DNA from: Asaia prunellae JCM 25354
GTDB lineage: Bacteria; Pseudomonadota; Alphaproteobacteria; Acetobacterales; Acetobacteraceae
DNA: 64,000 nt
Assembly (NCBI RefSeq): GCF_000613885.1
Contig: NZ_BAJV01000012.1
Location: 1-64,000 of the forward strand
Direction of reading: 5' to 3'
A program made the translations under genes and the position numbers. This document shows, piece after piece, positions 24,400 through 64,000 of the stretch (its first letter is position 1; every line of letters starts with the position of its first letter). Under the pieces are notes generated by a model. That model was not told where the DNA came from. It worked only from the letters and a program-made list of their open reading frames with translations, and made no database searches.

Positions 24400-25803
24400 A
24401 TGGACATGTCTTTGACTTCGCCTTCCCCCGACAAGACCTCTTCCGATGACCTGACACCACAGGCTATGGCGCCTGAGGTCGATCTCAAGGCGACCCGACC
24501 TGCACGATTCGTTCATGGCAGTATCATGCGTCATGTCGTGGTCATGGCAGGGACGGGGGCGATTGGGCTGATGGCCGTTTTTGCGGTCGATCTGCTCAAT
24601 TTCTGGTACATTTCTCATCTGCATGATCCGGCACTCACGGCGGCCATCGGGTTTGCTGCAGCACTTGGGTATGTTCAGGTGGCTGTATCCATCGGGATGA
24701 CGATCGGGCTCGGTGCCATTATCGGTCGCCTGATCGGGGCGCGACGGATTATCCGGGCACGGCGTTTTGCATCAGCCTTCATGGTGGTGATGGTCGGTGT
24801 GACAACCGTTCTAGGCTGTCTGACGGCCGTTCTGGCGTCGTTTTTGCTCAGTCTGCTCGGTGCCAGAGGAGAAGCCCTCGTTCAGGCAGCCCATTTTCTG
24901 CATATGGTCTCGCCGTTCTTGCCGATGGTCTGTTATGGCATGGCTCAATCGGCGTTGCTGCGCTGTGTGGGAGATGCGCGACGTTCAATGCAGGTAACGG
25001 TGGTGGGCGCCATTGTCTCGGCTATTCTGGATCCGATCCTGATTTTTGGTTTCAATCTGGGACTGACGGGTGCAGCTGTCAGCACGATTATCTCCCGTGG
25101 TACGGTTGTTGCCTTCGGGTTCTTCAGTTTGCGTGATCATCGGATGCTGGAATGGCCACGCCTCTGGGCCGTCGCTCCGGCAACGCGGCAAATTGGTGCG
25201 GTTGCTCTGCCTGCCATAGCAACCAATCTGGCCACTCCGGTAGGTGGGTTGTTTACCACGCATTTCATGTCACATTTCGGGCTGGAGGCAATTACAGGTC
25301 AGGCAACGATCGAGCGTATTGTGCCAGTAGCCTTTGCCTTTGTGTTTGCCCTGACCGGTTCAGTCGGGCCGATTATGTCGCAAAATCTGGGCGCCGGGAA
25401 AAAAGACCGTGTGCGTGAGACACTTTATGCCTCGCTCAAGCTGACGGCACTCTGTGTTATACTGACCTGGGCTATTCTGGCCGCATTCCATACACCTATC
25501 CTGCATCTGTTTGCATCGAAAGGTGTTGCTGTCCGTATCGTCACATTGTTTTGCTGTTGGCTGGTGGCGAGTTATTTTTTTGTTGGATTGCTGTTCGTGT
25601 CAAATACAGCGTTCAACAATCTGGGCCATCCTTTCTATTCCACAGGCTTCAATTGGGGACGGGCGACTCTGGGTACAATTCCTTTTGTCTGGATTGGCTC
25701 TTTCTATGGGCCGATTGGCATATTGGTGGGACAGTCTCTGGGTGTGGTGATTTTCGGTAGCCTGGCAGCCTTGACGGCCTTCAGGGTCATCAGGCGGATA
25801 TGA
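24400..25803 (+). CDS. MATE-family multidrug efflux transporter
   Basis: This is a membrane protein of about 467 residues with twelve predicted helices in two pseudo-repeats, as in MATE/NorM transporters. Motifs include the N-terminal FAVDLLNFWYISHL (the family VD-x-x-FVG-like region) and the second-half GSVGPIMSQNLGAGKKDRVRE, which matches the first-half GLGAIIGRLIGARR. ATG 24400 is preferred; an in-frame ATG at 24229 would place 57 polar residues and a repeat inside the gene. ATG 24406 is also possible. It likely exports cationic compounds using proton or sodium gradients. Confidence 0.86.
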   Translation: MDMSLTSPSPDKTSSDDLTPQAMAPEVDLKATRPARFVHGSIMRHVVVMAGTGAIGLMAVFAVDLLNFWYISHLHDPALTAAIGFAAALGYVQVAVSIGMTIGLGAIIGRLIGARRIIRARRFASAFMVVMVGVTTVLGCLTAVLASFLLSLLGARGEALVQAAHFLHMVSPFLPMVCYGMAQSALLRCVGDARRSMQVTVVGAIVSAILDPILIFGFNLGLTGAAVSTIISRGTVVAFGFFSLRDHRMLEWPRLWAVAPATRQIGAVALPAIATNLATPVGGLFTTHFMSHFGLEAITGQATIERIVPVAFAFVFALTGSVGPIMSQNLGAGKKDRVRETLYASLKLTALCVILTWAILAAFHTPILHLFASKGVAVRIVTLFCCWLVASYFFVGLLFVSNTAFNNLGHPFYSTGFNWGRATLGTIPFVWIGSFYGPIGILVGQSLGVVIFGSLAALTAFRVIRRI

Positions 25804-26265
25804 CTTAAGGAAGTGGGCACTATAGGCAGTTTATCAATATAATTTCACAGGTATATCGTAAATGTTTTCATTTATAGAACATATGAAGCAGCAATAATTA
25901 TATTGAAATAATAAAACAATATTTCAATAGAAATTAAGCTAAAAACAAATAATAATTGTTAAAAAATAAAATAACTTAATAAATGTTTGCGTTTGGTGTA
26001 TTAAAATTTATATAGGAAACGTATAAAACAAATTATTATTATTTTTATACAAACATATATTTTTTAATAATTTATTTCAAATTTTTGTTTATCTGAAAGA
26101 ATAAAAACTTCTTTTCTCCTCATTTTCAACGCGGTGAATGATGGTATTGTATTTTGTCGTGTATATCGTCTTTTCGTTCTTCCCTTACAGATTGTAGTGA
26201 GGGATAATAAAATGGTATGAAATCTGAATTTATCGTTTTTGAAAATGCTGTGACTGAGAGTGGCG
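25804..26265. other. very AT-rich spacer before the rml operon
   Basis: No gene-like frame is visible. From about 25840 to 26110 the DNA is almost all A and T, with only scattered G/C, in sharp contrast to both sides. Several long W-only runs occur (for example near 25920-25980 and 26040-26090). Such DNA often marks a promoter under a nucleoid silencer or a horizontally acquired edge. A ribosome-site-like GAGAG precedes the rmlB ATG. Confidence 0.7.
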
Positions 26266-27321
26266 ATGCGAATATTGTTGACAGGTGGTTGCGGGTTTAT
26301 CGGTTCTGCTGTGGTCAGGCATCTGATCCGTCAGACCACTCACGAAGTTCTCAATGTGGATTGCATGACGTATGCAGCCTCGGAAGAAACAGTTGGAGAT
26401 GTGTCGGCAGACAGGCGTTATCGCCATGCTGCCGTCAATATTGTCAATGGTGTTGAACTTCAGAAGCTGTTTGACGAATATCGCCCGGATGCCGTGATGC
26501 ATCTTGCAGCAGAGAGTCATGTTGATCGCTCGATCGATGGTCCTGGTGTGTTTGTCGAGACGAATGTCACTGGTACCTATGCGCTTCTCGAGGCTGCCCG
26601 CCGCTACTGGCAGACGCTTGGCGCAGAAGCCCAGAAGGCATTTCGCTTCCATCATATCTCGACCGATGAAGTGTTCGGTCATCTCGAACTCGATGATCCG
26701 CCATTCACCGAGACAACCCCTTATGATCCAAGAAGCCCGTATTCGGCATCAAAGGCGGCTTCGGATCATCTCGTCCGTGCCTGGTACCATACCTATGGCT
26801 TGCCTACTTTCGTGACCAACACGACCAATAATTATGGTGTCTGGCATTTTCCCGAAAAGCTTATCCCGCTGGTAACGATCAACGCACTGGAGGGCAAGGA
26901 ATTGCCGGTTTACGGCAAGGGCGAGAATATCCGTGACTGGCTGTTCGTCGAGGATCATGCTGAGGCATTGGTAAAAGCAGTTGAACGCGGCCAGCCGGGT
27001 GAGACCTATGCGATTGGTGCACGTCAGCCACGTACCAATCTTGATGTGGTCAAGACGATCTGCACCGTACTTGATGAGTTGTCGCCTGATCCGGCAGGGC
27101 CTCGCGAGCGCCTGATCCGTTTCGTTACCGACCGCCCGGGCCATGATTTCCGTTACGAGATCGATCCCAGCCATGCCGAAAAGGCGCTGGACTGGAAGGC
27201 GAAGCACGATTTCGAAACGGGCATCCGTCGCACCGTTCAATGGTATCTCGACAACCGTCATTGGTGGGAAGGCATTCGTGCCCGTCGTTACACCGGACAG
27301 AGACTGGGAACAAAAGCATGA
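26266..27321 (+). CDS. rfbB: dTDP-glucose 4,6-dehydratase
   Basis: RmlB/RfbB converts dTDP-glucose to dTDP-4-keto-6-deoxyglucose, step two of dTDP-L-rhamnose synthesis. The NAD motif GGCGFIGSA, the catalytic HISTDEVFG, and YSASK of the extended SDR family are intact, as is the C-terminal YTGQRLG. ATG 26266, five bases after GAGAG, is preferred; GTG 26260 is an alternative. The segment [14 protein letters not shown] differs slightly from the usual [14 protein letters not shown]. The stop overlaps the rmlA ATG, so the rml genes form an operon. Confidence 0.95.
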
Positions 27322-43942: not shown

Positions 43943-43994
43943 TTCTGGTGCCGGGTGAGGGATCTGAACCCCCGACCTTCGGTTTACAAAACCG
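43943..43994 (-). repeat. left attachment-site repeat (3' part of tRNA-Thr)
   Basis: This 52-bp sequence matches 52586-52637 with one mismatch (GATCTGAA against GATTTGAA). It covers the tRNA-Thr 3' half from the anticodon stem to CCA, but the 5' half is missing. It is the displaced chromosomal tRNA end left by integration. Confidence 0.9.
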
Positions 43995-44556: not shown

Positions 44557-45043
44557 ACTCCACGCTATCCATCCACGAATGCTCGTGCGCCCTGGCGATC
44601 ATGGCCGGAACATCAAGCTCGTCGGTGTATTTGTCGAGCGCCGCGACAAAGGCGAGCAGGGCGTCATTTCCGGCCTTACTGCTGCCCTCAGAGGGGCATT
44701 CGAGAGGCACTGTCTCGCACCCAGTAACAGCAACGCCAGACTTCCGGATGCTCAGCGCCTTGCTGAATTGCGGCCACCCGGCGACAAGCACATGCGCCAT
44801 GAAATGCCGCCATTTGCAGTACGCCCAGCCTGTATTGACTGGAGATCCGTTCGCCTCTGTACGGACGAGATGAGAGACGCGAGGGATAGCCATCCAGCCG
44901 TTACGATCCGGTAGTGCAAAGGGATAACGCACGTCGGGAGATAGAACCGGAGGAGCGGGCAATAGGGCACACAAAGCCCGGACTTCCTCCGGCTGACGGC
45001 GCAGCACACGCCCGATAGCGTGCAGGGCATGACGGATTTTCAT
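44516..45043 (-). CDS. hypothetical phage-type protein in the cro operon
   Basis: The 175-residue frame starts at ATG 45043, which overlaps the cro stop by four bases (ATGA), so it is the next cistron of the Cro operon. It begins MKIRHALHAIGRVLRRQPEEV and has a segment WAYCKWRHFMAHVLVAGWPQF. In lambdoid layouts the gene after cro is a regulator or replication protein, but I recognise no domain. A longer frame to 45172 would overlap cro completely. Confidence 0.55.
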   Translation of the reverse strand: MKIRHALHAIGRVLRRQPEEVRALCALLPAPPVLSPDVRYPFALPDRNGWMAIPRVSHLVRTEANGSPVNTGWAYCKWRHFMAHVLVAGWPQFSKALSIRKSGVAVTGCETVPLECPSEGSSKAGNDALLAFVAALDKYTDELDVPAMIARAHEHSWMDSVEFKCPDQPRNGETP

Positions 45044-45243
45044 ACGAGCTCGCTTGGCGTGCTCATGGCCGAGCCTTCGTTGGGAGTACGGCGGGCAGAC
45101 AGCAATGCTCGCACCGGACAATCCAACATATCTGCGACGATAGCTGCGTGGCGCGCAGGGACGCTTTTCCACTGGCTAACAGCTTGGGAGGTGACGCCCA
45201 ATTTCTTAGCTAAGGCGGATGTACCCCCTGCCTTGGCTATCAC
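45040..45243 (-). CDS. Cro/YdaS-like phage repressor
   Basis: The 67-residue helix-turn-helix protein reads GGTSALAKKLGVTSQAVSQW, a Cro/YdaS-type HTH. GTG 45243 starts it; the frame is open further up (EEALEQVIAKAGG), with no ATG, so a weak upstream start is possible. It diverges from the CI-type gene across a control region with TGTAAG palindromes. Its HTH recognition helix (VTSQAVSQW) is identical in sequence to that of the CI protein, so both should bind the same operators. Confidence 0.8.
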   Translation of the reverse strand: MIAKAGGTSALAKKLGVTSQAVSQWKSVPARHAAIVADMLDCPVRALLSARRTPNEGSAMSTPSELV

Positions 45244-45349: not shown

Positions 45350-46006
45350 ATGGCTCCAATCGACTCCCTTTCTGACGCAATCCGCCGTTCTGGCGTGAAG
45401 AACAAAGAACTAGCCAAGCGGTTTGGCGTAACAAGCCAAGCTGTAAGCCAATGGAAAGCAGGCTCGTCTCTGCCATCTCCTGACCGGGTGCAGGATGTGA
45501 TTGCTTATCTGCAATCGCGTGTCGCAGCCTTGGAGGGTGGCCATCAGGTCGCCGCTGATCTTCCCCCTCTTACTAAGTCGTCTGTTCCTGGCTACGTGCC
45601 AGTCCGATCGCTCAATGCCAGTGCGGGTGCTGGAGGCGGCGGACTGATAGAAGATGGGCTGCTTGGCTACCCCCAGTTGTTCGAAGAAGGATTCGTGACA
45701 CGAGACCTTCGCGCGCGGCCTGAAGATTTATGCGTGGTGGAAATTGAAGGTCAGTCTATGGAACCGCTTCTTCGGAGCGGTGACACCGTTCTTGTTGATA
45801 TGCGCAAGAAGAACGTAGCCATGGAGGGAATTTTCGTCGTTTTCGATGGTGACGGCGTCGTCTGCAAATGGGTTGAAATGGTGCGTGGCCTGGACGCGCC
45901 TACACTACGTATCAAATCTGAGAACGACCGCTTCCCTTCCTATGACGTACAGGCGGAGCGATGCCAGATTCTCGGACGGGTAGTGTGGTTCTCTCGCAGG
46001 TTGTAG
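45350..46006 (+). CDS. CI-type LexA-like repressor (HTH + S24 peptidase)
   Basis: The 218-residue repressor has an N-terminal HTH (ELAKRFGVTSQAVSQWKAGS, residues about 20-39), a linker, and a LexA-like S24 domain. The nucleophile serine is in EIEGQSMEPLL and the lysine in VVCKWVEM. A glycine-rich stretch with SAGAGGGG (about 90-97) is the likely autocleavage region. It should maintain quiescence of the element and be inactivated by RecA during DNA damage. It diverges from cro across shared operators. Confidence 0.9.
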   Translation: MAPIDSLSDAIRRSGVKNKELAKRFGVTSQAVSQWKAGSSLPSPDRVQDVIAYLQSRVAALEGGHQVAADLPPLTKSSVPGYVPVRSLNASAGAGGGGLIEDGLLGYPQLFEEGFVTRDLRARPEDLCVVEIEGQSMEPLLRSGDTVLVDMRKKNVAMEGIFVVFDGDGVVCKWVEMVRGLDAPTLRIKSENDRFPSYDVQAERCQILGRVVWFSRRL

Positions 46007-46388: not shown

Positions 46389-46564
46389 TCAGAATGCTCT
46401 GGAGCGCGATCGCGCGAAATTCGATCATGGCATGCCTGATCCTGTTTCTTCTGCATCAGATCCTGAGTTCTGCCCGTATCTGGCTGCGCTGCCGCGATCT
46501 GAAAACGCAGTTTCGAACGCTCAATGCTCTGAGAAATAGTAGCCACGAGGAAGACCGGAAATGA
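46385..46564 (+). CDS. small membrane protein, 59 residues
   Basis: This frame of 59 codons has a hydrophobic helix (NSIMACLILFLLHQIL) followed by a basic tail (RIWLRCRDLKTQFRTL). The start overlaps the previous stop and its stop overlaps the next ATG, both by four bases, which argues that it is translated. Function unknown. Confidence 0.5.
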   Translation: MIRMLWSAIARNSIMACLILFLLHQILSSARIWLRCRDLKTQFRTLNALRNSSHEEDRK

Positions 46565-46899
46565 CCCCTACCCGCAAGACGGCGGCAGAGGTGGCAACCG
46601 AGCTGCGCGTGTCGCCGCGCCTCATTCAGAAGCTTTGCGCCACAGGCGCCCTGCGCGTCGCCAAAGTCGGTTCCGTCTGGCGCATAACGACGTCAGCGAT
46701 TGACGACTATCTCGATCAGGAGGCCAGCAGGCCGTCGTGTCCAGCAATCTCTACCAGGCCGCAAACGGCACCTATTACGCTCGGATCCAGATCAGGGGGC
46801 GCGACATCCACCGATCGCTACGCACGACTGATCGGCGTACAGCCCGGCAGCGCCTCAAAGAGCTGCTCGAAAAGGCGGAGGACCAGCGCGTCGGCATAA
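46561..46899 (+). CDS. excisionase-like helix-turn-helix protein
   Basis: The first 55 residues form a MerR/Xis-type HTH (KTAAEVATELRVSPRLIQKL, then GSVWRITTSAIDDYL), as in excisionases that tune integrase direction. After about residue 55 the frame runs over the integrase start and loses protein character, so the true protein is probably shorter and a small indel may hide its stop. It directly precedes the integrase. Confidence 0.65.
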   Translation: MTPTRKTAAEVATELRVSPRLIQKLCATGALRVAKVGSVWRITTSAIDDYLDQEASRPSCPAISTRPQTAPITLGSRSGGATSTDRYARLIGVQPGSASKSCSKRRRTSASA

Positions 46900-47728
46900 A
46901 GCTTCCTGAGATCAGGAGCTGGGAAAACGCGTGGTGCGGTGGGAGGAGCTGTAATTTGCTGATCTGCGCCCCAGCACACAGACGCGATATCGAACGAGCC
47001 TGCGGCAGCTTCATCCCTGTTTCGCGGGGCGGGATATCAGCCTGATTGCCTCCCGCAATGTGCATGAGTTTGTGGCGGCCAGACGGCGCACCAGGACTTC
47101 TGGCGCCACCATACGCCGCGACCTGGTGATGGGCCGCATCATGCGCGTGGCGCGTCGTGCTGGCTGGATTACCGCCAACCCGGTGCCGGACGAGATGGAG
47201 GAGATCAAGGAGCGTCGCGAACCCATTCGGCCTGTGGTCTTGTGCGACCTTGCACGCCTGACGCGCCGCGCCCCACCCGGCATGCGCGACATGATCCGCT
47301 TTCTGGCCCGGACCGGCTGCCGGCAGGAAGAAGCCGCCTCGCTCTCCTGGGAGCAGCTGGACCTCAAAGCCCCCTGCCCCACCGTGACCTTTGCCATAAC
47401 GAAGACGAGATCGCCCCGCGTGGTCAGGCTCTCGCCCAGGCTGGCCAGAGAGCTGTAACGCAGCCGCCCGGAAAACGCGAGCGGCTACGTCTTCCGCAAC
47501 CTGTCAGGGCAGTGCTACACCAACGTCCCAGGCCGCTTCCGCGTGCTTCTGGCCAGCGCCATACCGGATAAAGCCTGCCACTTCCGCTGCCACGACCTGA
47601 GACACACCTACGCCATCCGCGCCCTGCAACAAGGCGCCTCGATCTATGATGTGTCCCAACAACTCGGCCAAAGCTCGGTCAAAACGACCGAGATCTACGT
47701 GGCCTGGTTGTCACACCGAATACGGTGA
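46737..47728 (+). pseudogene. int: decayed tyrosine integrase
   Basis: Homology to phage-type tyrosine recombinases spans three pieces. The N-terminal arm and SAM-like domain begin at GTG 46737 (NLYQAANGTYYARIQIRGRD). A core starts at about 46955, with RTGCRQEEAASLSW holding the first catalytic arginine. The end has CHDLRHTYAIRAL and TTEIYVAWLS with the tyrosine. Between them are a frame change near 46935 and two in-frame TAA codons, at 46952 and 47456, both after GAG-CTG. The catalytic R-HxxR-Y set is present but no full-length protein can be made as read. Inactivation would lock the island in place. Confidence 0.8.
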
Positions 47729-47884: not shown

Positions 47885-50208
47885 ATGCAAAGCTCTGAGT
47901 CATTCCGGATTAGTTCTCGTCTGAAAGATATCATCGGGCGCGACCTTGTCACAAACGAGTACGTGGCGATTTTCGAGCTGGTAAAAAACTCATTCGACGC
48001 AAGAGCAACGTCCGTTGATATCGAATTCCATCCGATAAAGGGATAATTGCGATCGTCGACGACGGCAGGGGTATGTCGTCCAAAGACATCAAAGAAAAGT
48101 GGTTGTTTGTAGCCTATTCTGAAAAATCCATCCATATTCCCAATGATTACCGAGATCGGATAAAAACAGCAGGTCAGTTTGCCGGAAGTAAGGGAATAGG
48201 TCGATTTGCGTGCGACACTTTAGGTGAAAATTTACATTTATATAGCAAAACCGTAAATGATAATATTGTTTCTAAACTGGAAATTGACTGGTCCGATTTC
48301 GACAAAAATGCTACAGACGAATTCCAACAAATCAGTGTAGCTTTAGGGCAAGTCTCGAAGTTTCCTGATCTTATCCACGCAAGTCCTCCAAAAGACAGTG
48401 GAACTGTACTGATCATTAGCGATACCCATGAGACTTGGGATATCGAAAAGATCAAGCGACTACGTCGTGATCTTGCCAAGCTGATAGATCCTTTCGGTAC
48501 GACAAAAAGCGTTACAGTTTCCACCTGGTTAGTCAGTGATGACGTCACCATTGACGGTGTTAATGGCCCTGTTGGAAATGAAATATCAGATCTACTACGA
48601 GACAAGACGAGCCGGATTGAGGTTGTTATCGAAAATGACCTCATAGAGACTATTCTTTTCGATCGAGGGCGTAAGATCTACGCCATTCGGGAGCCGTCCC
48701 CATATGAGGAGCTTCATAATATCCATGTCCAAGGAAGTGTTTTCTTTCTGAACAACTCTGCAAAGAAAACTTTTGCTAGACGTATGGGGGTAACATCTGT
48801 CGCATTTGGGAGTATATTTCTATTTTTAAATGGGTTTCGAATTTTTCCAATAGGCGAAGAATTCGATGACACTCTTGGCCTTAACCGAAGGAAGCAGCAA
48901 GGCCAACGCCGTTATCTCGGTACACGCGACCTTCTCGGCCGTATTGACGTTGTCGCTCCGCCCAGAAAATTTCGCGAGGTATCGAGCCGCGATGCTGGCC
49001 TCGTTGATGATGCAAATCGCCGCGCATTGTTCGATGCAATCCGACGACAAATGGTATTTCGGCTCGAACGATATGTCGTAGGAGTAAACTGGGCCGACGC
49101 TCTGGACAAAAACCGAGATACAGCCGATGGGCTAGCGACCGATGAATCGCGTGACCGCATCTTAAGGGTAATTGGTAATCTGGCTCGTTCACGGGACATT
49201 GAGATCATCTATTACGATGAGGATATTGTTCGGGTTTCTGACGATCCAGATAGAATTACAGATGAGACGCTCAAATCGATAGTTTCGGCGGCAGAGAGTA
49301 GAGGAGACGCGAACCTTCTTGCCCAAATCGAGCAAGCTCGTGCTCGGATCGAAGAGCTTCGTAGTCAGCGACGAGAGGCTCAAATGGCTGCCAATCTGGC
49401 GATAGCCGAACGGGCACGGGCTGATGCTCGCATCGAAAGCTTAGAGCGGCAAGCTGCATTTCTCGGTAGCAGCAAGAGGGTTGATGTAGAGCGCGCCCAA
49501 CTACTCATGCATCAGGCGATCATTCATGCTGGACATATACGGTCTGCAGTGGGAAACGCGGCACACAAGCTTAATGAAATTTTAGAATTAGCAGTTATGC
49601 CGCAGATGTTGGAGGATCTTGACGATCTCGAAGACATCCTCGCTTCTGTGCGGCAATCTGCAAGAAGCGCTTCCTCATCGATCGCAAACGCAACACTCTC
49701 TGGTGATCGCCTGAGCGCCGTCCTGTCTTTCGCACCTAACATCCGCGTTGATCTTAAGACAGATCTTATTAATGGTGACTTGTTGGGATTTCTTAGCGAG
49801 TATTTCCAATTTCGCCTTGATGGGGTTCCGGGTATGCCTCGCGCTATTTTTGACGCGTCCGGTATATCCCTAAAGCGAGACTTTTCGCCGGTAGACATAT
49901 CTGTCCTCATTGACAATCTGCAAGATAACGCTCGCAAGGCTAAAGCTAACGAGATTACTTTCAAGGCTATTCGCAAAGGAACAGGAAAGGTTGTAATCAA
50001 AGTTACAGATGATGGTCGTGGTATAAACCTTGATAGAGTCGATCCTACCAAAATATTCGAACGCGGGTACACCGAGTCCGCGAATGGAACAGGACTAGGT
50101 CTTTACAGTGCGAAACAAATTCTTCAGTTGATGGATGGTAGCATTGAGCTTGTTGGCGATGGTAGCCGCGCCGATTTTGAGATTACAATTTCAGGAGAGT
50201 TATCATGA
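47885..50208 (+). CDS. protein with two GHKL ATPase domains (MORC/Hsp90-like plus histidine-kinase-like), one frameshift here
   Basis: ATG 47885 opens a frame that breaks near 48040, where one G of a GGG run is missing, and continues to 50208, about 774 residues in all. Domain one is an Hsp90/MORC-type GHKL ATPase: N-box FELVKNSFDA (30-39), G1 VDDGRGM (58-64) and G2 GSKGIGRFA (101-109). A transducer-like middle follows, then a coiled coil (about 455-520) and a helical region with a His-rich stretch (LMHQAIIHAGHI). Domain two is a histidine-kinase-type ATPase: N-box DNLQDNARKA (about 677), G1 TDDGRGI (about 708) and G2 NGTGLGLYSAKQIL (about 734). No sensor or transmembrane part is seen. The stop overlaps the receiver gene start (ATGA). 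Confidence 0.85.
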
Positions 50209-51146
50209 ATCTTGAATTAGGCATCTTGTGGATCGAAGACTCTTTTAGCCCAGAAGAAGAAACCAATCTTAAGCGATGCATTCAAGAAGTCGGTTTCCTA
50301 GCGGAAATAAAAAACATTGTTAATGGAGAAGAAATAGAAACACTTGCAAAACAGAATAACCTATTTCATTGCTACGATTTAATTCTTTTGGATTTTGCCC
50401 TTAAAGGAGTAAATGGCGATGATTTGGCCCCAAAAATTAGAGATTTATTCCCATCGACAACCATTCTTTTCTATTCTGGAAATTTTGAGAAAGAAACTCT
50501 CCTACTGAAAATTGCGGAAAAAAAGGTGGAAGGCGTCTACTGCTGCACTCGTGATCGCTTCATCGAACGCGCGGGAATACTTATCGAACAAACTGCTCGA
50601 ACGCTGGATCGGCTGTCTGGCATGCGCGGTCTAGCAATGCGCGTCGTTGCTGAGTGCGACGCAATCATGAAAGAAGCTGTCATCTATCTCAGTGCGACAG
50701 ATGACAGCTGTGCGGCAATATTGACCGAGATGGATAATGATGTCTTTGAACATATTGATGAGGTCAAGAAAAGGTATCAGGCCTCCATGGGGAACAGTGT
50801 ACAAGCGCGCCTAGATACGTTTGCCGTCGATAGTGCAAAGTTATTTGCGCATTTCAGGAGATTATCCAAGAAAATTTTAAGTAATCCGAATAGTATACGA
50901 CTTTCTACCGCACAGATCGATGAGCTGAGAAATCTGAATAGAAAGACCAGCAATTATGTTGTCGCCGTTCTCAATAGGCGTAATGCACTTGGTCATGCCA
51001 AAGAAATGCGCACTGCTGAGGGCTGGAAACTAGACGGTAATAGTGGCATCAAAATTTCAGACTTCCCAATGATTAGACGCGACTTCGCCGTCTACAAAGA
51101 GGCTTTCGAAAGCATAAGAAAATTGATCACTTCGAGCGATAAGTAG
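50205..51146 (+). CDS. receiver-domain protein with HEPN-like C-terminal domain
   Basis: The 313-residue protein has an N-terminal response-regulator receiver domain (1-125). It keeps the acidic pair Glu11-Asp12 in LWIEDSF, the phospho-acceptor Asp63 in ILLDFALKGVNG, and Ser91 in LFYSGN. The usual lysine near residue 116 is replaced by arginine (CTRDRF). There is no DNA-binding output. The C-terminal 180 residues are helical and hold RRNALGHAKE, where Arg259-Asn260 and His264 fit the R-N-x3-H signature of HEPN ribonucleases. It is coupled to the dual-GHKL gene, so it is probably its phosphotransfer or signalling partner. The HEPN call rests on one motif and is tentative. Confidence 0.72.
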   Translation: MNLELGILWIEDSFSPEEETNLKRCIQEVGFLAEIKNIVNGEEIETLAKQNNLFHCYDLILLDFALKGVNGDDLAPKIRDLFPSTTILFYSGNFEKETLLLKIAEKKVEGVYCCTRDRFIERAGILIEQTARTLDRLSGMRGLAMRVVAECDAIMKEAVIYLSATDDSCAAILTEMDNDVFEHIDEVKKRYQASMGNSVQARLDTFAVDSAKLFAHFRRLSKKILSNPNSIRLSTAQIDELRNLNRKTSNYVVAVLNRRNALGHAKEMRTAEGWKLDGNSGIKISDFPMIRRDFAVYKEAFESIRKLITSSDK

Positions 51147-52334
51147 ACTGATGAGTGTTTCCCCTAACGCTTCTGCGAGCAAGGGCGGAACTGCGTTTCC
51201 AACTTGCGTAAAACGCGGGCAAGCGCTCTTTCTTCGATGCCCCCCCGAAGTATAAGGCCCTTTGAATTCAAACCAGTCCGGGAAAGACTGTAAGCGCGCA
51301 TGTTCGCGCACAGTCATGGATCTTGGTCTCGAATAATGCACGAAGTCATCAGGCAGCGTACTGATTGTCGGAGCAGGAGAATTCGGATCGAGCGGGGTAG
51401 TAGAACGTTTCTTGATGCCTAAGCGAGCCCTATCTTCCATACTAAGACACACTCCACGCTTACAGTTCTCCAATATATCTCGCATCCTCTCGATCGAGGC
51501 TGGGCTATGTCGTGGTAGACGCATATCACTTGGCTGACCGTTATTTATGTCCCTCATCAACTTTTGATAGGGATGTTGCGGCTCACTGGTTCGGCGCAGT
51601 GTTTTGAACCCTTTATGGCCCCACTCACTATCTAGAATCAAATCATCGCTCGTTTCCGCAAGATCGGATAGCGCTGCTCTGGTTCCTGTCGGGCCTGGAC
51701 CAAGCTCACGCGTGGAAAGGAAGGCTTTTCGGGCGACACGCAATCTTTCTAAAGGATCTATACCTGCTAAAGCAGCTTTAGGCGCAGCCACGAGAATAAA
51801 ACGAGGTCGACGCTGCGGTACGCCCCAATCAGCAGCCCTAACAATACCCGTCCACACTTGATAGCCAAAACGGTCTAACTCGCGAACCACGTACTCGCTG
51901 TAGGTGCCGCCAGTTCGATGCTTCATCGAGCGAAAGCCGACAACATTTTCGAGAAGAACTAAGCGTGGGCGTAAAATTGCAACATACTGAAGGTAGACAT
52001 CGACCATTTTACTCCGCGGATCATCGGGCCGCCGTAATCCGTTCATGCTAAAACCTTGGCAAGGTGGCCCCCCTGCGATCAGGTCTACCTTTCCGCACAA
52101 GTCCTGCAACTGTGAGTCGTGTTTCGCCAGCAACTCTTCCGCAAGCCAGGCACGCTGCTCCAGCCATGCCGGCCAGCCGTGTCGACCCGCATGGCGATCA
52201 AGCAAGTTATGCTTGTAAGTAGCAAACGCATCTGGATGAGCTTCTACGCTAAACAGCGTTGAAAATCCCGCCTTACCCAGACCGAGCGACAAACCGCCGC
52301 AGCCGGCGAAAAGATCAATGCAAGTGAATGTCAT
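51057..52334 (-). CDS. dcm: DNA (cytosine-5)-methyltransferase
   Basis: All main C5-methyltransferase motifs are present in 425 residues: I (DLFAGCGGLSLGLG), IV with the catalytic Cys92 (GGPPCQGFS), VI (LLENVVGF), VIII (QRRPRFILVA) and X (TQVGNAVPPLLAEAL). ATG 52334 directly precedes motif I; TTG 52379 is the only longer choice. It is convergent with the receiver/HEPN-like gene and overlaps it by 90 bp. No restriction nuclease or Vsr gene is adjacent, so it is an orphan methylase or acts with the ATPase/receiver pair. The recognition sequence cannot be read from the protein. Confidence 0.92.
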   Translation of the reverse strand: MTFTCIDLFAGCGGLSLGLGKAGFSTLFSVEAHPDAFATYKHNLLDRHAGRHGWPAWLEQRAWLAEELLAKHDSQLQDLCGKVDLIAGGPPCQGFSMNGLRRPDDPRSKMVDVYLQYVAILRPRLVLLENVVGFRSMKHRTGGTYSEYVVRELDRFGYQVWTGIVRAADWGVPQRRPRFILVAAPKAALAGIDPLERLRVARKAFLSTRELGPGPTGTRAALSDLAETSDDLILDSEWGHKGFKTLRRTSEPQHPYQKLMRDINNGQPSDMRLPRHSPASIERMRDILENCKRGVCLSMEDRARLGIKKRSTTPLDPNSPAPTISTLPDDFVHYSRPRSMTVREHARLQSFPDWFEFKGPYTSGGHRRKSACPRFTQVGNAVPPLLAEALGETLISLLIARSDQFSYAFESLFVDGEVASNHWEV

Positions 52335-52585: not shown

Positions 52586-52637
52586 TTCTGGTGCCGGGTG
52601 AGGGATTTGAACCCCCGACCTTCGGTTTACAAAACCG
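52586..52637 (-). repeat. right attachment-site repeat within tRNA-Thr
   Basis: This 52-bp copy overlaps the 3' half of the intact tRNA-Thr and matches 43943-43994 except for one base. On integration the element restored the tRNA by bringing its own 3' end. Confidence 0.9.
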
Positions 52638-52663
52638 CTGCACTACCACTGTGCTAACCCGGC
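52589..52663 (-). tRNA. tRNA-Thr (anticodon TGT)
   Basis: The minus strand gives a complete cloverleaf, GCCGGGT paired with ACCCGGC, then A-CCA. The anticodon loop is TTTGTAA, giving UGU. It is the integration target of the island on its 3' side and remains intact. Confidence 0.96.
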
Positions 52664-52820: not shown

Positions 52821-54310
52821 TCAGACCGAGTAGTACATTTCGAATTCGGCCGGGTGCGGCGTGTGTTCGAATTTGTAGACTTCTTTCCACTTCAGCTCGA
52901 TATAGCTGTCGATCTGGTCCTTGGTGAAGACATCACCTTCCAGAAGGAACGAGAAATCTGCTTCGAGGGCCTGAAGAGCCTCACGGAGCGAACCGCAGAC
53001 CGTCGGGATCTGCAGCAGCTCTTCCTTGGGCAGCTCATACAGATCCTTGTCCATAGCTTCGCCCGGATGGATCTTGTTACGGATGCCGTCGAGGCCGGCC
53101 ATCAGCATGGCGGCGAAAGCAAGGTAAGGGTTGGCGGTCGGATCCGGGAAACGGACTTCGATACGCTTTGCTTTCGGGCCGACCGAATACGGGATACGAC
53201 ACGAAGCCGAACGATTGGCTGCCGAGTAAGCAAGCAGAACCGGCGCCTCGAAGCCCGGGATCAGACGCTTGTAGGAGTTGGTCGACGGGTTCGTGAAGGC
53301 GTTCAGTGCCTTGGCGTGCTTGATGATTCCGCCGATGTAGTACAGTGCGTCTTCTGACAGGCCTGCATACTGGTCGCCCGCAAAAAGCGGCTTGCCGTCG
53401 CGCCAGATCGACTGATGCACGTGCATGCCCGAGCCGTTATCACCGGCGATGGGCTTCGGCATGAATGTGGCCGTCTTGCCGTAGGAATGGGCGACGTTGT
53501 GCACGCAGTATTTGTAGATCTGCATGAAGTCGGCCGACTGGACCAGCGTGGCGAACTTGGTGCCCAGCTCGTGCTGCGACTGTGCCACTTCATGGTGATG
53601 CTTTTCGATCGGCAGGCCCATCTCACCCATGGTCGAGAGCATCTCGGCGCGCAGATCGCCTTCGCTGTCGACCGGAGCAACCGGGAAGTAGCCGCCCTTG
53701 ACCACCGGACGATGGCCCATATTGCCTTCCGGATAGTCTTTCATCGAAGCGTCAGGGCCTTCGATGCTGTCGAGCTGGTAGGTGCCGTAATTCGGGCCCG
53801 TACCAAACTTGACGTTGTCGAAGATGAAGAATTCGGCTTCGGGGCCAAAGAAGGCCGTATCACCCAGACCTGTCGTCTTCAGATAGGCTTCGGCAGCTTG
53901 GCGGTCGAGCGCGGGTCACGGGCATAGTAGGTGCCGGTGCGGGGCTCGACGATATCGCAGATCAGGATCAGCTGCGGCTTGGCCGAGAACGGGTCCATGA
54001 CGGCCGTGGTCGGGTCGGGCAGAAGCACCATGTCGGATTCATTGATGGCTTTCCAGCCGGCGATCGACGAGCCGTCGAACATGAAGCCTTCAACGAAGGT
54101 ATCTTCTTCAATGGTGGTGTGCCACTGCGTCGTATGGTGCCACTTGCCCTTCGGGTCGGTGAAGCGCAGATCGACCAGTTCGACCGAGTGTTCCTGCATC
54201 AGCTCGAAGACGCGCTTTACAGCGGCGCTGTCGGGCTTACCCGGCTTTGCATGGGCCGCTGAAGTGAAAGACGCAGCCTTGGACGCCGCGGCTGGAGCTT
54301 TTTTCGCCAT
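52821..54310 (-). CDS. glnA: type I glutamine synthetase (one frameshift here)
   Basis: GlnA makes glutamine from glutamate, ammonia and ATP. Two frames joined near 53895 give about 496 residues. The N-terminal part has [14 protein letters not shown] and [11 protein letters not shown]. The junction needs one extra G (AAGCTG-GCCGAA) to read [13 protein letters not shown]. The C-terminal part has [21 protein letters not shown] and the adenylylation region LYELPKEE with its tyrosine, so GlnE control is likely. The N-terminus is extended by about 25 Ala/Lys-rich residues ([13 protein letters not shown]) relative to most GlnA. The break in so essential a gene points to sequence error. Confidence 0.93.
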
Positions 54311-55903: not shown

Positions 55904-57935
55904 AACGCGGTCATCTTGTCGGTTGGTACGCGCGGCTCGAGCGGCGCCTCTTGTCGCATACCTTGTTGCTGCGTCGCGGCTTTTCCGGAAGTGGGGGTCT
56001 GTCCGGCGCTTTCTGGTTGGGCGCCCGTTTCGACATCACCCGCTGGTTTCGCCGGTGCCGCAGGAGAGACCTGTGGACCGACCGCGCTATAGGGATCACT
56101 GGGCGGCAACACGTCGATCGGAGCCTGACTGGCAAGCGGGTTGTGCTTGAGGATTTGTGCCGTCTCGTCGGGGTAGCGACGCATCAGCCAGAAGAGTGCC
56201 GTTGGTCCAGCCAAAACCGATCTGCATCGGGTATTCGCCGCCGCCTTTGCCGCCTGAAGCGCTGATACCGGGTGCTTCCACATCGTATTTTTCAAGCAGT
56301 ACGCCTGATTTCTCATAAGTGCCGATTACACGTGCCATCCATCGTCTGGCAATTGTCTCACCGAGATCGCTCGCTCCGTAGTTATTGAGGCCCTTGATCG
56401 CCATCCATTGCTCTGGCGCCCAGCCATTCGGGGCGTCCCATTGCTGTCCGCTTTCATGATCGGTCGCCATGATCCCACCGGCCCGCAGGAGCCGTGTCCG
56501 GATTGTATCGGCTACCGACATGGCCTGAGCCTGTGAGGCAAGGCGCAGGAAAAGCGGCACGGCTGTGGCGGAAGAGAGCACGTCGGTTGTCTGGCCTTTA
56601 CGCCAGTCGTAATCGTAGAAAGCCCCTTTCTCTTCATTCCAGAAAATCCGCCTGACAACAGCAGTATGCTCATCCGCGCGCTGACCGTAGAGCGCTGCAA
56701 GCTTGTGCTGCCCTGTCAGGGCATAGCCATGCTCCAGGGTCTGCTCGAGGTGGACCATCAGACAGTTTACTTCGATAGGAGCAAGGTCGGTCGTGTGAAT
56801 GGTCGACAGGGTATGCCCGTCAGCAAGCCAGCGCGATGAAAAATCCCATCCTGTCTCGGATCCGGCGCGCAGATCGCGATACACATCCGATGGCGCACGC
56901 ATGCTTGCCTTGGCTGCTGTAGCAACGTCTTCGGGGTAGCTTTCATCACGTGGCGTATCGAGATCATCCCAATGGCGCATCAATAGCGTGCCATCTGAGA
57001 GGCGGACGAGATGACGATGGGCCTGACCGGGTTTCAGCGTGTCCGCACCATCCATCCAGTAATCGTATTCCTTCTGCAACTGAGGCAGGAATTCACGATA
57101 ACTGTCCTGGCCATCATGCTGGGCAAGAAGATCGACCATCAGCGAGAAGAAAGGTGGTTCGGATCGGCTGAGATAATAGGTGCGGGTGCCGTTGGGAATA
57201 TGACCATAACGATCAACAAGTGAGGCCATGTCCCGGATCATGCCGCGTAGCAGATCCCATTGTCCCGGTCTCGTAGAGGCCGATCATGGTGAAATAGGTG
57301 TCCCAGTAATAGAGTTCTGAAAAACGGCCACCTGGTACGACATAGGCATGGGGAAGCGGCAGAAGCGACGAGTAGGCCATCGGCTTGTCAGGCTGACGGG
57401 TCAGGACGCTCCACATACCCTGAATATAGTCGTAGATATTTTCATCAGCCTTGCGCTGGTATGTAATTTCGTGCCGCTGTGGTGGCGTGAAATGTGCAGT
57501 GTAGAAAGCCTTGAGGCTGAAATCAGGATTCTTGCGTTGCTCCTCCCAGCTCTGGAGAAGTTGTGCAGGTGCCTCGTTAGGGCGTGAATCGGCAATCGTC
57601 TTGAAGTCAGGCGCCAGATGCGCACCACCAATGGCTGCAAACAATCCACCCAGAGCAATAGACGGCGAGCGCAGATCCTGTGGTACGGATGCGACATGCA
57701 GGGAGTGCGCGGCTTCACTTGCAACAGTCTCGCGTGGACCGGTCGATGGATGGGGGGGGGTATCTGCTGCTGCCGGGACAGAAGAAGAGGTGATGGCAGG
57801 TTCGGGAGCTTTCTGCGCGACGTCTTGTCTCTGATCAGCTGCACGGGCTCCGGTGCTCATGGCAGAAACATTCAGAACAACCAGCGAAGTGCCAAGAAGC
57901 AGGAGATGAGAGAAGGAAAGGCGTTGGCTGGTCAT
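55891..57935 (-). CDS. treA: periplasmic trehalase, GH37 (two frameshifts here)
   Basis: Three frames joined near 57255 and 56205 give about 680 residues. The first starts with a signal peptide (SHLLLLGTSLVVLNVSA, ending ARA) and has the GH37 signature PGGRFSELYYWDTYFTMIGL. The second, after one extra G in a GGG run, has GAFYDYDW, QQWDAPNGWAPEQWM and GGEYPMQIGFGWTNG. The third ends in a Pro/Ala/Gln-rich tail of about 100 residues that is not part of the catalytic domain. TreA splits trehalose to glucose in the periplasm. The N-terminal linker is also Pro/Ala-rich. The 3' end just overlaps the convergent aminotransferase. Confidence 0.88.
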
Positions 57936-60879: not shown

Positions 60880-63086
60880 TTACCAGGAAAAGCCGATACT
60901 GCCTTGTGCATTCCGGCGCTCTCCATACCAGCACCATCCGCTCGGTGATCCGAAAGAGAAACAGCTTGAAATGAATTTCCGGTCGAAAATATTCCGGACA
61001 CTTGCCTGCAAGACCCAGCCACGTAATCCAGGCGAAGATTTGCCCAGATCATAACGCAGCGAGCCATCAAACAGGGTATAGCCGGGTACAGTGACAGAGC
61101 CGCCTGGTATACTCATGCCCTGCACGATTGTCGTTCTGGCAGCGCCCTGTCCTCCATAGCCTGACATGACATAGCGCACACCGGCACCAAGTCCGACACC
61201 TGCCAGTGACCCATGGGGCAGGGTATACATGGCGAAGAATGTCGCACTTCCCTTGTTCGACTGAACCAGAGGATGCCCTGTGGAGTCATCATGAACGTCT
61301 TGTGTACCTACTGCCGCATCAATCTGGAGATTATGCCAGGAGTTCACATGGCCTTCGACTTCGAAGCCGTCTGAATGGACCAACCCGCTTTGCGTACCCC
61401 AGGGCATATTGCCTGCGGTTACGATGACATTGGTCTGCATGAGGTGGAAACCGGCAGCACTCAGCAGAATTGGTGTACCTGGAATCTGGTATTTGACGCC
61501 ACCTTCGAGTTGCTTGCCCAGAGAAGGGCTGGGTGTATGGGTCGTCTTGCCACCGTCGCCGGATACAAGCCCTGTCTGAGGCTGGAATGAAGTGGAATAT
61601 GAAATATAGGGAGAAAGACCGAATTCGAAATGATAGAGCTGATGCGCGCCATGTTACCTGTGATGGGGCGATATGTGTTGTAGTCGCGGAAACCAGCTGC
61701 TTTTGCGTCATACGGTACCAGTCATTTCGTACGCTGCCGGTGATGTGGAATCCCCGCCACTGTAGCTCATCCTGCCCGTAAATACCGATCTGCTGCTGAC
61801 GTACGGTATAGTTGGCAAAAAGGGCAGGGGTTGTAACAGGCAGCCAGTAATCTGGGGCAAGAACGTTCAGATCTGGCGCCCGTCCGGATCGCGCAAGCTC
61901 TGCCGAACGCATCTGCTGATAATCGAATCCGGCAGTCAGTGCCTGCTTGACCGGTCCTGTCACAACACGCCCGCGCAGTTGATTGTCGAATACGATGGCA
62001 TTCTGCTCGTCCTTGGCGGCGAAGGCACTTCGTGAAATTGTTGTTGGGCCGACATACGCGCCAGTGCTGTAGACGCCCTCGTAGTTTGACCGGACATAAT
62101 CATAACGCCCTCGGGATGAGAACTGCCAGTTGGTGTTGAACCGGTGATCGAAGATATAGGTTCCGGCCCCCTGGGTCCTTCGGAACCGCTCGAAATTCAG
62201 GTCGCCGTCATAGAAATTGCGGGGTACCTTGCCGTAAATTGCCGGATACAACGAACCAACCATTGGAAACGAGCCATAGGACGAATTTTCAGGATCGACC
62301 TGAAATTGGTGATGAGCGTGAGTCTGTCTCGTCCTCCCGCTCCGATTGTCATGGTCGGGCTGATCGAAAACCGACGGTTCTTTGTGCGGGCAAGCTGGGA
62401 ACGTGAGCCGTTGGCCGTTCCGTAAATCCGCCCGCGGACAGAGCCGTCTGACGTGAGGTAACCCCCTATGTCTCCATCAATACGATAGAGGTCAAAGCTG
62501 CCTCCTGTAGCAGTGAGAGCGCCGTAAGAACGCGCATCTGTCGGCATTTTGCTCGTCTGTGCTATCAGCCCACCAGGAGTGGAGCGCCCATAGAGCGACG
62601 AGGCTGGTCCTTTCAGAACCTCGATCCGTTCCAGGCGTGAGGTATCCGTCTGAGGCGTCGCAAAACCTGTTGGTGCCTTGGGCAGGATCAGCCCGTCCAG
62701 ATATGGCAAGACGGCGAACCCACGTAACTGGAAGAAATCGTAACGTGGAGAGGTGCTGCCGCGCAGATCAGGGTGATGCCCGCCGTGTAGCGTAGAGCCT
62801 GCCCCAGTGTCAGAACACCGCGCAGATCCATATCAGTACGGGTGATGACCGTAACGGATTGCGCTGTTTCAACCAGAGGGGTGGCCGATTTGGTGGCTGA
62901 AGAAGCAATGGTTGAGGCTCGCTGGCGCCCGGTGACTACGATCTCCTCCGCGTCCGATGCGGCCAGAGTGCTGCTGCTCTTGTTGGTGGAGGCTGTAGCT
63001 CCCTCAGTCGCCATTACACGTCCGATGCTGGCATCGCAAAGCGCAGCCGAGCCTAACAACACACGTATAATCAACCCGTATCTCAC
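60880..63086 (-). CDS. TonB-dependent siderophore receptor (three frameshifts here)
   Basis: Four pieces, joined near 62735, 62250 and 61650, form one outer-membrane receptor of about 735 residues. It has a signal sequence and a TonB-box-like EEIVVTGRQ. The plug has TAQSVTVITRTDM, then RLERIEVLKGPASSLYG and PGGLIAQTSK. The 22-strand barrel follows, with YISYSTSFQP in one frame. It ends SVRNIFDRKFISSCFS and a terminal aromatic residue (GSIGFSW). The layout fits FhuA/FpvA-like ferric siderophore receptors. A Fur box lies 43 bp upstream. The breaks look like sequence error, but a true pseudogene cannot be excluded. Confidence 0.85.
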
Positions 63087-63128
63087 CGCTCATCTCCTCG
63101 TTTGATGAGCATTGGCCTATAATGCAAG

Positions 63129-63143
63129 TGATAATCATTATCA
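63129..63143. promoter_or_regulatory. Fur box
   Basis: TGATAATCATTATCA is a perfect 7-1-7 inverted repeat matching the Fur consensus core. It lies 43-57 bp upstream of the receptor start, where iron-loaded Fur would block transcription. 63144-63405 shows no gene; it is AT-rich and must hold the promoter of the rightward gene at 63406. Confidence 0.88.
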
Positions 63144-63405
63144 AAAAGATTTATATAATTATCCTTTGCTCTGTGACCTACAGCCGGAAACGGGAATACC
63201 CAGAATTTTTCCAGGTTATAAAAATGTTACATTTAGAAAATAGATTGATTATATCCTCTCAAGATAAGCCTGAAGCTTATTTTGCAACGACAATGAGAGG
63301 GGACTGATAGTTCTGCAATAGGACTTGCGTTGATTTTATTGTATTAATAACTTTGTTTTCTCTAACGAGTAATTTGTATCTAACTTAAATGGAGATTTAA
63401 TAGAG

Positions 63406-64000
63406 ATGAGCGGTCCTGAAGCAAAGAAAAAATCATCATCATCAAGAAAAAAATCCGCGACTCAATCACTCACGCCAGATATCACGCTAGAGGTAATGAC
63501 TCGCTTACTTGATGCCGTATCAGATGGAAATGGTGCTATTATTCTGGATGGATTGAGACAGAATCCGTCTGATCTCGGTTCTCTGATCCAGCAGATTGCC
63601 AATAGTCATGGTATTGAAAAGCAGAGAAAACTGACACAAACCAGCGACATAATGGAAAGTGGCAGGATGGAAGCGGATTTTGCTTATGTGGGGTTACCTG
63701 CAGAGGCGCGTTCCATGGATTTCAGATCAGCATTTGATAGACATTTAAGATCCCGTTTGGGTAAACGGGCAGACGGATTTGCGATCATCTTTGATCGGCT
63801 GGATAAGCACAGTCGCCCGGTCATCATTGAAACCGGTTGCCTACGTGTACCGGACAACTGGGAAGGAGATGGACAGAGTACTTTCCAGTTTGACTGGTAT
63901 GCACGCGAACGCCAGGGATGCGTCTTTACAATTGATATCAATCCCGCAAGCATAGATAGCGCGCGGCGTGCTTGCAGCGGGACAACAAACACAATTCTGA
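63406..64000 (+). CDS. SAM-dependent methyltransferase-like protein (3' partial)
   Basis: The frame stays open from ATG 63406 to the window end (198 codons). The first 25 residues are Lys/Ser-rich (AKKKSSSSRKKSA). The visible region with VIIETGCLRVPDNWEGDGQS and VFTIDINPASIDSAR resembles the motif I and II segments of class I methyltransferases found in surface-polysaccharide and glycosyltransferase loci. The catalytic part lies beyond the window. GGAG lies 11 bases before the ATG. Confidence 0.6.
   Translation, partial: MSGPEAKKKSSSSRKKSATQSLTPDITLEVMTRLLDAVSDGNGAIILDGLRQNPSDLGSLIQQIANSHGIEKQRKLTQTSDIMESGRMEADFAYVGLPAEARSMDFRSAFDRHLRSRLGKRADGFAIIFDRLDKHSRPVIIETGCLRVPDNWEGDGQSTFQFDWYARERQGCVFTIDINPASIDSARRACSGTTNTIL

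Follow-up and report, generated by a model that had tools for sequence, protein, structure and literature searches.

HEF_HK (PF19191) and Response_reg_2 (PF19192) were described in 2021 as two-component-like pairs encoded near restriction-modification (R-M) genes (PMC8011034). The available text of that report describes one protein with an N-terminal HATPase_c_3 and a C-terminal HATPase_c domain, an adjoining receiver protein, a cytosine-5 (C5) DNA methylase and often a Vsr gene, and names no output domain, RNase or killing mechanism (PMC8011034). We analyzed a cassette of the same overall plan in a 64,000-nucleotide window of Asaia prunellae JCM 25354 (assembly GCF_000613885.1), which is the first 64 kb of one contig (NZ_BAJV01000012.1) of a 3.18-Mb draft genome in 38 contigs. 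The cassette consists of a dual-GHKL ATPase/kinase gene, a gene for a receiver protein with a HEPN-like output half and a C5 methylase gene, and lies on a tRNA-Thr island. We found that the three genes are a real conserved unit, a widespread mobile cassette, which probably works as a phosphorelay-controlled, R-M-like anti-phage system. An initial annotation of the window had proposed the trio as a defence module matching no system that could be named. The trio as a conserved unit on a tRNA island was borne out; the lack of a named counterpart was not, as the pairs published in 2021 share its plan (PMC8011034), nor was the first gene intact. The features of the cassette, in window positions, are:

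47885..50208, + strand, dual-GHKL ATPase/kinase gene, frameshifted near 48037-48045 as assembled (main-frame product P0001; closest intact relatives ~775 amino acids)
48052..48342, + strand, N-terminal Hsp90/MutL/MORC-type GHKL domain, main-frame part (HATPase_c_3, 1.1e-12; P0001 residues 2-98)
49510..49512, + strand, invariant His, candidate phosphoacceptor, H488 of P0001 and H544 of the intact relative L026 (78-protein alignment)
49897..50187, + strand, C-terminal histidine-kinase-type GHKL (CA) domain (HATPase_c, 1.2e-16; P0001 residues 617-713)
50205..51146, + strand, receiver and HEPN-like output protein, 313 amino acids, overlapping the upstream dual-GHKL gene by 4 bp
50391..50393, + strand, Asp63, candidate receiver phosphorylation site, invariant in 75 of 75 proteins
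50979..50996, + strand, R259-N-A-L-G-H264, HEPN-type Rx4H motif (R and H in 75 of 75 proteins, N in 73, L in 70, G or A in 74)
51057..52334, - strand, C5 cytosine DNA methyltransferase, 425 amino acids from ATG 52334, TTG 52379 also being open (DNA_methylase, 5.4e-50; PADLOC type II methyltransferase, 2e-80)

Comparison with described systems

The GHKL proteins of the two sets are homologous: a profile of the cassette GHKL proteins matched the HEF_HK proteins at 2e-46 to 2e-40 in all seven loci fetched. In those seven loci the GHKL proteins have ~1000 amino acids and the regulators ~540-670, whereas the closest relatives of the window have ~775 and ~315, respectively. The HEF_HK model was not reported in 37 members of the cassette family at E 0.01, nor in P0001 at E 1. 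Response_reg_2 gave no match in the window receiver at E 1 and weak matches in 11 of 75 relatives (best 1.4e-4), and the local profile match between the regulators of the two sets covered the receiver domain only (88 columns, E 3.2e-6). Plain membership was rejected, since the Pfam models miss the window proteins (HEF_HK in none of the 37) and the regulator match is limited to the receiver domain; HEF_HK/Response_reg_2 is a sister family of the cassette.

Other described systems share parts of the plan. The MORC and paraMORC proteins of R-M operons have an N-terminal GHKL ATPase beside C5 methylases and Vsr, and have been proposed to loop DNA using ATP (PMC2292703). About 70% of MORC neighbourhoods hold a superfamily II helicase, and the term 'receiver' is absent from the available text of that account (PMC2292703); our cassette has a kinase half and a receiver effector where those neighbourhoods have the helicase, and no helicase family matched among the 12 window proteins scanned. 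The PrrC-type HEPN anticodon nucleases resemble the cassette as modelled here in that an R-M-held HEPN RNase is released by infection and countered by phage RNA repair (PMC3710099, PMC2610378), but in their case control lies with a type I R-M enzyme together with an ABC-type ATPase domain, and no kinase or receiver is involved. Ymh-HEPN fused to paraMORC likewise brings a MORC-like ATPase and a HEPN RNase together within R-M loci, although as a direct fusion, for which the passages on it mention no kinase half or receiver (PMC3710099). VcSduA, a GHKL-Shedu protein, is anti-phage, and its C-terminal effector is presumed to be controlled by an N-terminal GHKL ATPase; that effector is a DNA nuclease in the same chain, and the available part of the report mentions neither phosphorelay nor methylase (PMC12137116).

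The N-terminal GHKL domain also resembles that of type II restriction enzymes (NF050001, 9.8e-11; PADLOC REase_II, 1.2e-15 for L026), but the BbrUII/HgiDII model (NF050001) missed its whole-protein cut-off, with 40.9 bits vs 550, and only this domain matched. An ordinary type II R-M system was rejected, as nuclease domains were reported neither for the dual-GHKL protein nor for the island open reading frames (ORFs) scanned. In Detocs, a histidine kinase and response regulators govern a killing effector during phage infection, and a phosphobuffer protein is included. Detocs is not known to have a MORC-like half or a methylase; the 12 window proteins scanned included one receiver and no second. 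We recognised no account of a receiver-HEPN output, an effector exchange or a defence test for the cassette family in the literature searched, which largely left aside subscription journals and bioRxiv.

The three genes form a conserved unit

Loci were searched for mainly with a profile of the dual-GHKL protein. Scanning one genome per species gave 128 matches, of which 80 were kept; with ten more from virus contigs, five found earlier and the window, the set came to 96 loci, or 91 after five exact duplicates were dropped. By their second gene, 78 of the 91 were HEPN-type, 7 caspase-like type, 4 had other or incomplete receivers and 2 were cut off at a contig end. Of the non-redundant loci, 71 (the window being one) had sufficient flank, and in all of these the next gene encoded a receiver: 64 were HEPN-type, 5 caspase-like type, and the last two were L031 and L099, whose receiver ORFs also have the motif. 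A C5 methylase scoring at least 300 bits lay within 5 kb in 69 of these 71 loci, while the methylase profile gave a single weak match (25.8 bits) across 341,688 bp of control sequence, drawn from 103 shorter loci; chance co-location of the trio was therefore rejected. The neighbourhood conservation that the initial annotation had put up for checking was found, and homologues scattered without their partners, named there as evidence against the model, were not.

The genes were also closely linked to each other. The first and second genes most often overlapped by 4 bp (62 of 85 loci counted), the translational coupling already noted for the window. The methylase, likewise recognised earlier as facing the pair, is on the other strand and is convergent on the receiver gene with a 90-bp overlap in the window, and such a convergent 3' overlap was present in 53 of the 56 HEPN-type loci of the commonest layout (median, 86 bp). 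Protein distances correlated between GHKL and receiver (r = 0.93) and between GHKL and methylase (r = 0.74) over 73 loci. One hit found via the receiver instead, L004/L222, also had the genes in a methylase-GHKL-receiver row (L222:4438-8490). Gene set, order and linkage, mobility, the conserved catalytic residues and the exchange of effectors are direct observations on these loci.

Vsr genes stood near 29 of the 91 loci and were absent from the other 62, the window among them. In two Pseudomonas loci (L032:671-6169 and L033:684-6176) the cassette keeps Vsr and stands behind a protein of ~1830 amino acids. In the Bacteroidota loci L083:4260-7655 and L103:11645-14965 the cassette is followed by two more genes for C5 methylases and one HNH-like gene (named by eye), apparently a separate R-M system that travels with it. 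A transposase-like insertion splits the receiver gene of Gluconacetobacter diazotrophicus PA1 5 (L031:9145-11290), in which the dual-GHKL and methylase genes are open.

The dual-GHKL protein combines two ATPase types

Two GHKL types in one chain, as read from the window earlier, were confirmed by Pfam in the window protein and in 37 of the 37 members scanned, each with an N-terminal HATPase_c_3 and a C-terminal HATPase_c domain; the Pfam and PDB scans covered these 37 of 88 proteins. A profile of the 37 relatives matched HtpG (2.7e-7), mitochondrial Hsp75 (2.1e-6) and MutL (5.9e-6) chains with its N-terminal part, and histidine kinases with its C-terminal part (ZraS at 7.6e-17, other sensor kinases at ~1e-14). 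None of the Pfam families reported in the window's dual-GHKL protein or in the 37 members was a nuclease domain. We aligned 78 of the 88 proteins, the remainder, near-copies among them, being excluded by hand. H544, which sits between the two halves, N683 of the N-box and the G2 glycines G738 and G740 were invariant, and D710 of the G1 motif was conserved in at least 90% (L026 numbering). Most residues expected of a phosphorelay are kept across the family.

The receiver protein has a HEPN-like output half

The window receiver domain matched Response_reg at 7.8e-7 with 29.7 bits, just below the Pfam cut-off of 30.2. The long receivers were aligned for 75 of 78 proteins, the window's included; the others, near-copies among them, were excluded by hand. 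Of the receiver signature, the acidic pair was kept (E or D at position 11 in all 75 proteins, D12 in 70), as were the candidate phospho-Asp D63 and the Ser/Thr switch (S or T at 91), both in all 75. Asp63 and His264, singled out for substitution in the initial annotation, are both present, and His264 belongs to the short list of invariant residues of the C-terminal half, namely R141, G142, D152, R259 and H264. The Pfam matches reported for the window receiver include no DNA-binding output domain, and none recurred among those of the 75 relatives. PADLOC gave no match for the window receiver or for the receivers of three relatives.

The active site of HEPN RNases has been defined as Rx4-6H with a polar N, D or H after the R and a second acidic residue upstream (PMC3710099, in the passages on this motif). 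In the cassette proteins R, the following N, H or D, and H were each found in 75 of 75, and D152, upstream and likewise present in every protein (75 of 75), fell on the acidic helix of HEPN_RiboL-PSP in the alignment. When the output half was compared with the HEPN_RiboL-PSP profile (built from 16 of 29 loci), hhalign gave E 8.7e-4 with the RNxLxH motifs in register in the full alignment, relative to 0.21 for a PhoU control (6 of 16 loci). HEPN_RiboL-PSP was also the joint commonest weak Pfam match of the output halves (4 of 75). Taken together, the motif and the weak profile match suggest that the output half is likely HEPN.

The effector is exchanged in a minority of loci

The second gene of 7 of the 91 loci encodes a shorter receiver of 229-232 amino acids without the RNase motif, and an extra gene of ~210-250 amino acids is found nearby:

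L093:10079-10801, His/Cys-motif extra protein, with equivalents in L102, L103, L104, L108, L029 and L118, beside receivers without the HEPN half

Short and long receivers were homologous over 156 columns (E 2.4e-11). The extra protein has H64-G65 and S117-C118 invariant in 6 of 6 members, and the seventh has A-C. The caspase-like (clan CD) dyad consists of a His-Gly and a Ser/Ala-Cys after a hydrophobic strand, and by this motif the extra protein looks caspase-like. Since its match to the C14 peptidase profile (Peptidase_C14, 15 of 30 sequences usable) was not significant (hhalign E 0.28) and worse than the PhoU control (0.053), the label is given by motif only. No Pfam match was found for three members and no PADLOC match for the extra protein, and the PDB matches of a six-member profile were at chance level. 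Five of the 7 exchange loci cluster in a single clade, in which four are Bacteroidota by name and to which a HEPN-type locus is the nearest tree row; L118, on a virus contig, lies near that clade in the tree, and L029, a partial locus from the window's phylum, is outside the tree sample. A methylase stood upstream in 6 of the 7 (the L029 contig is short). The kinase was kept while a separate His/Cys-motif protein replaced the RNase half, so that the sensor-kinase stayed in place and the effector was swapped, which suggests a generic front end and an exchangeable killing end.

Some HEPN-type loci have an additional gene. A polynucleotide 3'-phosphatase (HAD_PNKP) lies directly behind the receiver-HEPN gene at:

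L028:9338-9778, polynucleotide 3'-phosphatase
L107:4860-5315, polynucleotide 3'-phosphatase
L109:10041-10487, polynucleotide 3'-phosphatase
L116:10224-10676, polynucleotide 3'-phosphatase
L119:10236-10676, polynucleotide 3'-phosphatase

Enzymes of this type are established to mend the ends that HEPN RNases such as PrrC leave on cleaved RNA (PMC2610378, in the text available). The phosphatase may serve the RNase as a partner in RNA repair or in immunity, and an RNA-cutting effector fits with its position directly behind the RNase gene in these five loci. A sixth copy (L095:2733-3371) lies upstream of its cassette.

The cassette is mobile and rare

Hosts of the cassette included Pseudomonadota, Bacteroidota, Acidobacteriota, Spirochaetota, Verrucomicrobiota, Calditrichota, a cyanobacterium and archaea, and the tree mixes host groups. 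It was nevertheless rare in the genomes sampled, being present in at least 3 of 289 genomes of the class (G000, G093 and G238) and, by its GHKL protein, in 3 of 398 genomes of the phylum. None of the 8 other genomes of the genus had a DNA match to it. L026 (67%), the closest relative, lies beside a CI-like repressor gene on a virus contig (IMG/VR), and L025 (65%) is among phage lysis- and tail-like genes, these neighbours being named by eye. The mobility of the cassette follows from its tRNA island with a repeat, the IMG/VR contigs and the absence of a DNA match in the 8 congeners. As in the window, a tRNA lies 0.2-0.4 kb behind the methylase in L030, L059 and L085 (3 of 60 loci scanned, with no control). 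In tblastn searches (limits 1e-5 and 1e-20) the window receiver matched no plasmid record and the dual-GHKL protein of L026 neither plasmid nor phage records, while the distant GHKL protein of L072 matched two Stenotrophomonas plasmids over 53% of the query and no phage record.

The window copy is frameshifted as assembled

The dual-GHKL gene had been taken as one open chain, and a frameshift was overlooked. The stretch from the start codon (ATG 47885), which holds the N-box of the N-terminal GHKL domain (47885-48043), occupies one frame; a second frame has the other ~720 codons, open to 50208 from no later than 48049. The change of frame lies near 48037-48045, where 6 of 6 aligned relatives have one extra base. 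Next to the island, the glutamine synthetase gene glnA (52821-54310, - strand) is also in two frames, being one base short at 53897 relative to 4 of 4 congeners. Genes named by eye as trehalase-like (56096-57935, - strand) and TonB-receptor-like (60880-62709, - strand) are each split over several ORFs. With glnA one base short and two more genes looking split, the assembly is probably short of bases in places, and because the adjacent housekeeping gene lost one base too, a base-call error is the likely cause of the dual-GHKL frameshift rather than decay. A slippery A-AAG-GGA followed by a stop could permit some -1 frameshifting, but programmed frameshifting at 48037-48046 was not preferred, as the aligned relatives read straight through without need for it and glnA has the same lost-base fault.

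Proposed mechanism and alternatives

We propose that the C5 methylase would mark a site in the host DNA as self. The dual-GHKL protein would dimerise via its N-terminal Hsp90/MutL-like half as an ATP-driven clamp and inspect DNA, and unmarked DNA, from a phage, a plasmid or the genome after loss of the methylase, would alter the ATPase state of the clamp. The altered state may switch on the C-terminal kinase half, leading to autophosphorylation on the invariant His (H544 in L026), from which the phosphate would move to Asp63 of the receiver. Phosphorylation would then free or dimerise the C-terminal HEPN RNase, which would cut RNA so that translation stops and growth arrests before phage is made, i.e., abortive infection. 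In the minority loci the caspase-like His/Cys-motif protein would act in place of the RNase half. DNA sensing, phosphotransfer, RNase activity and the anti-phage outcome are steps that we infer from sequence. More tentatively, and with a little less confidence than we would give to an even proposition, the cassette may represent a distinct class of modification-sensing abortive immunity in bacteria and archaea, an R-M system with a phosphorelay in place of the restriction enzyme, in which the kinase would read methylation via a MORC/Hsp90-like clamp and phosphorylate an exchangeable suicide effector, either a receiver-HEPN RNase or a receiver with a caspase-like protein. If so, two-component signalling would connect the recognition of self and non-self DNA to a programmed shutdown, with one effector substituted for another across lineages. 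A function would also be suggested for the uncharacterised paraMORC/two-component pairs published in 2021, and the reading of methylated DNA by MORC-type ATPases, a question shared with the eukaryotic MORC proteins, would become testable. Being compact, and carried both by phages and by a tRNA island, the cassette is directly testable in laboratory strains.

Several observations weigh against this model. The HEPN-like reading of the initial annotation gained an invariant catalytic motif and the weak in-register match at E 8.7e-4, but the pairwise profile probability for HEPN_RiboL-PSP was 23% only, its four weak Pfam matches among 75 output halves stand among 104 families matched at E up to 1, and a PDB profile search with the output half gave chance-level matches only (best E 0.056). 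No conserved Lys after strand 5 was found in columns 84-117 of the 75 receivers, though Arg116 is nearby in 71. In the dual-GHKL protein the Glu or Asp usual after the phosphoacceptor His is replaced, mostly by Gln (six aligned proteins have neither), and Pfam HisKA was matched by only 1 of 37 members. A methylase was not found near the Pseudomonas loci L032 and L033 (2 of 71). The receiver profile also matched 11 ORFs among the 103 control loci, in part because 18 of these had been fetched for holding receivers. Defence genes recurred among the 136 nearest neighbours (70 loci, proteins cut at 400 amino acids), a survey with no control set that we did not use as proof. The receiver gene of L222 (genome G238) stops at 151 amino acids, before the RNase half, near a contig end, and may be a truncated copy, another variant or a sequencing fault. 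Finally, the window's own dual-GHKL copy is frameshifted as assembled. That frameshift and an integrase in pieces would also be expected if the window cassette were a decayed, functionless remnant; we consider this unlikely, though a real prospect, as glnA is one base short relative to all four congeners and two more genes look split in an assembly probably short of bases, while the receiver, the methylase and the remainder of the dual-GHKL frame are uninterrupted and keep every invariant residue.

The main rival to the anti-phage model is a selfish addiction element, made of the same parts and selected mainly to kill cells that lose the cassette: a diluted methylase would leave unmethylated host DNA that triggers the kinase and RNase, and any anti-phage action would be a by-product. 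R-M systems can behave so (PMC8011034, in its available text), methylase and putative toxin occur together in 69 of 71 loci, their 3' ends overlap in 53 of the 56 HEPN-type loci of the commonest layout, and the carriers are a small island and phage contigs. Killing on loss, however, needs no two-step phosphorelay or exchangeable effectors, and we think it rather improbable that addiction is the main selective force, a reading that is in any case not exclusive of the anti-phage model. The kinase/receiver architecture could instead belong to a regulatory two-component system that governs linked R-M genes or another host response without killing, and signalling control of R-M systems was proposed by the authors of the sister family in the part of their report available (PMC8011034). 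Against it, no DNA-binding output was reported for the window protein or recurrently among 75 relatives; an invariant RNase-type motif, or a separate gene with a His/Cys motif, is found instead, and restriction enzymes were few among the 136 nearest neighbours (REase_II 2 and REase_III 1, among families listed, 25 of 189). We regard this explanation as distinctly improbable. That the dual-GHKL protein, alone or with a Vsr-like nuclease, cuts unmodified DNA in true restriction, the receiver only tuning it, seems very improbable indeed: the N-terminal GHKL is common to BbrUII/HgiDII-type restriction enzymes and Vsr genes stand near 29 of 91 loci, but no nuclease domain is among the Pfam families reported for the protein, and Vsr is missing at 62 of 91 loci, the window being one of these. 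A mobile, phosphorelay-controlled anti-phage system is the reading we favour as probable.

The tRNA-Thr island

The tRNA-Thr island of the initial annotation was recovered together with its far edge, and the carrying element has the following features:

43943..43994, no strand assigned, attachment-site-like distal copy of the tRNA-Thr 3' part, marking the island's left edge (52 bp, a direct repeat of 52586-52637 but for one mismatch)
45040..45243, - strand, Cro/YdaS-like small regulator of the element (P22_Cro, 7.3e-9; YdaS_toxin, 1.1e-8)
45350..46006, + strand, CI/LexA-like repressor of the carrying element with helix-turn-helix and S24 peptidase (Peptidase_S24, 2.9e-14; HTH_3, 2.4e-6)
46561..46899, + strand, small helix-turn-helix protein, excisionase-like by inference (HTH_17, 9e-10)
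46737..47728, + strand, tyrosine integrase in three pieces (46737-47045, 47060-47458 and 47543-47728), with no single open frame as assembled
52589..52663, - strand, tRNA-Thr (TGT), integration site (ARAGORN; Rfam tRNA, 71.7 bits)

An island of ~8.6 kb between the tRNA-Thr gene and its partial copy is supported by this 52-bp repeat. From left to right it holds the Cro-like regulator, the S24-type repressor, the small helix-turn-helix protein, the tyrosine integrase pieces and the cassette trio. The integrase pieces at 47060-47455 and 47543-47725 matched Phage_integrase (2.2e-5 and 2.8e-7), and that at 46737-47042 matched DUF6538 (4.1e-5). The G+C content was 43-53% across 48-53 kb, relative to 53-62% for most of the window. 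It also dips to 43-47% at 25000-27000 and 63000-64000, which suggests other foreign segments there.

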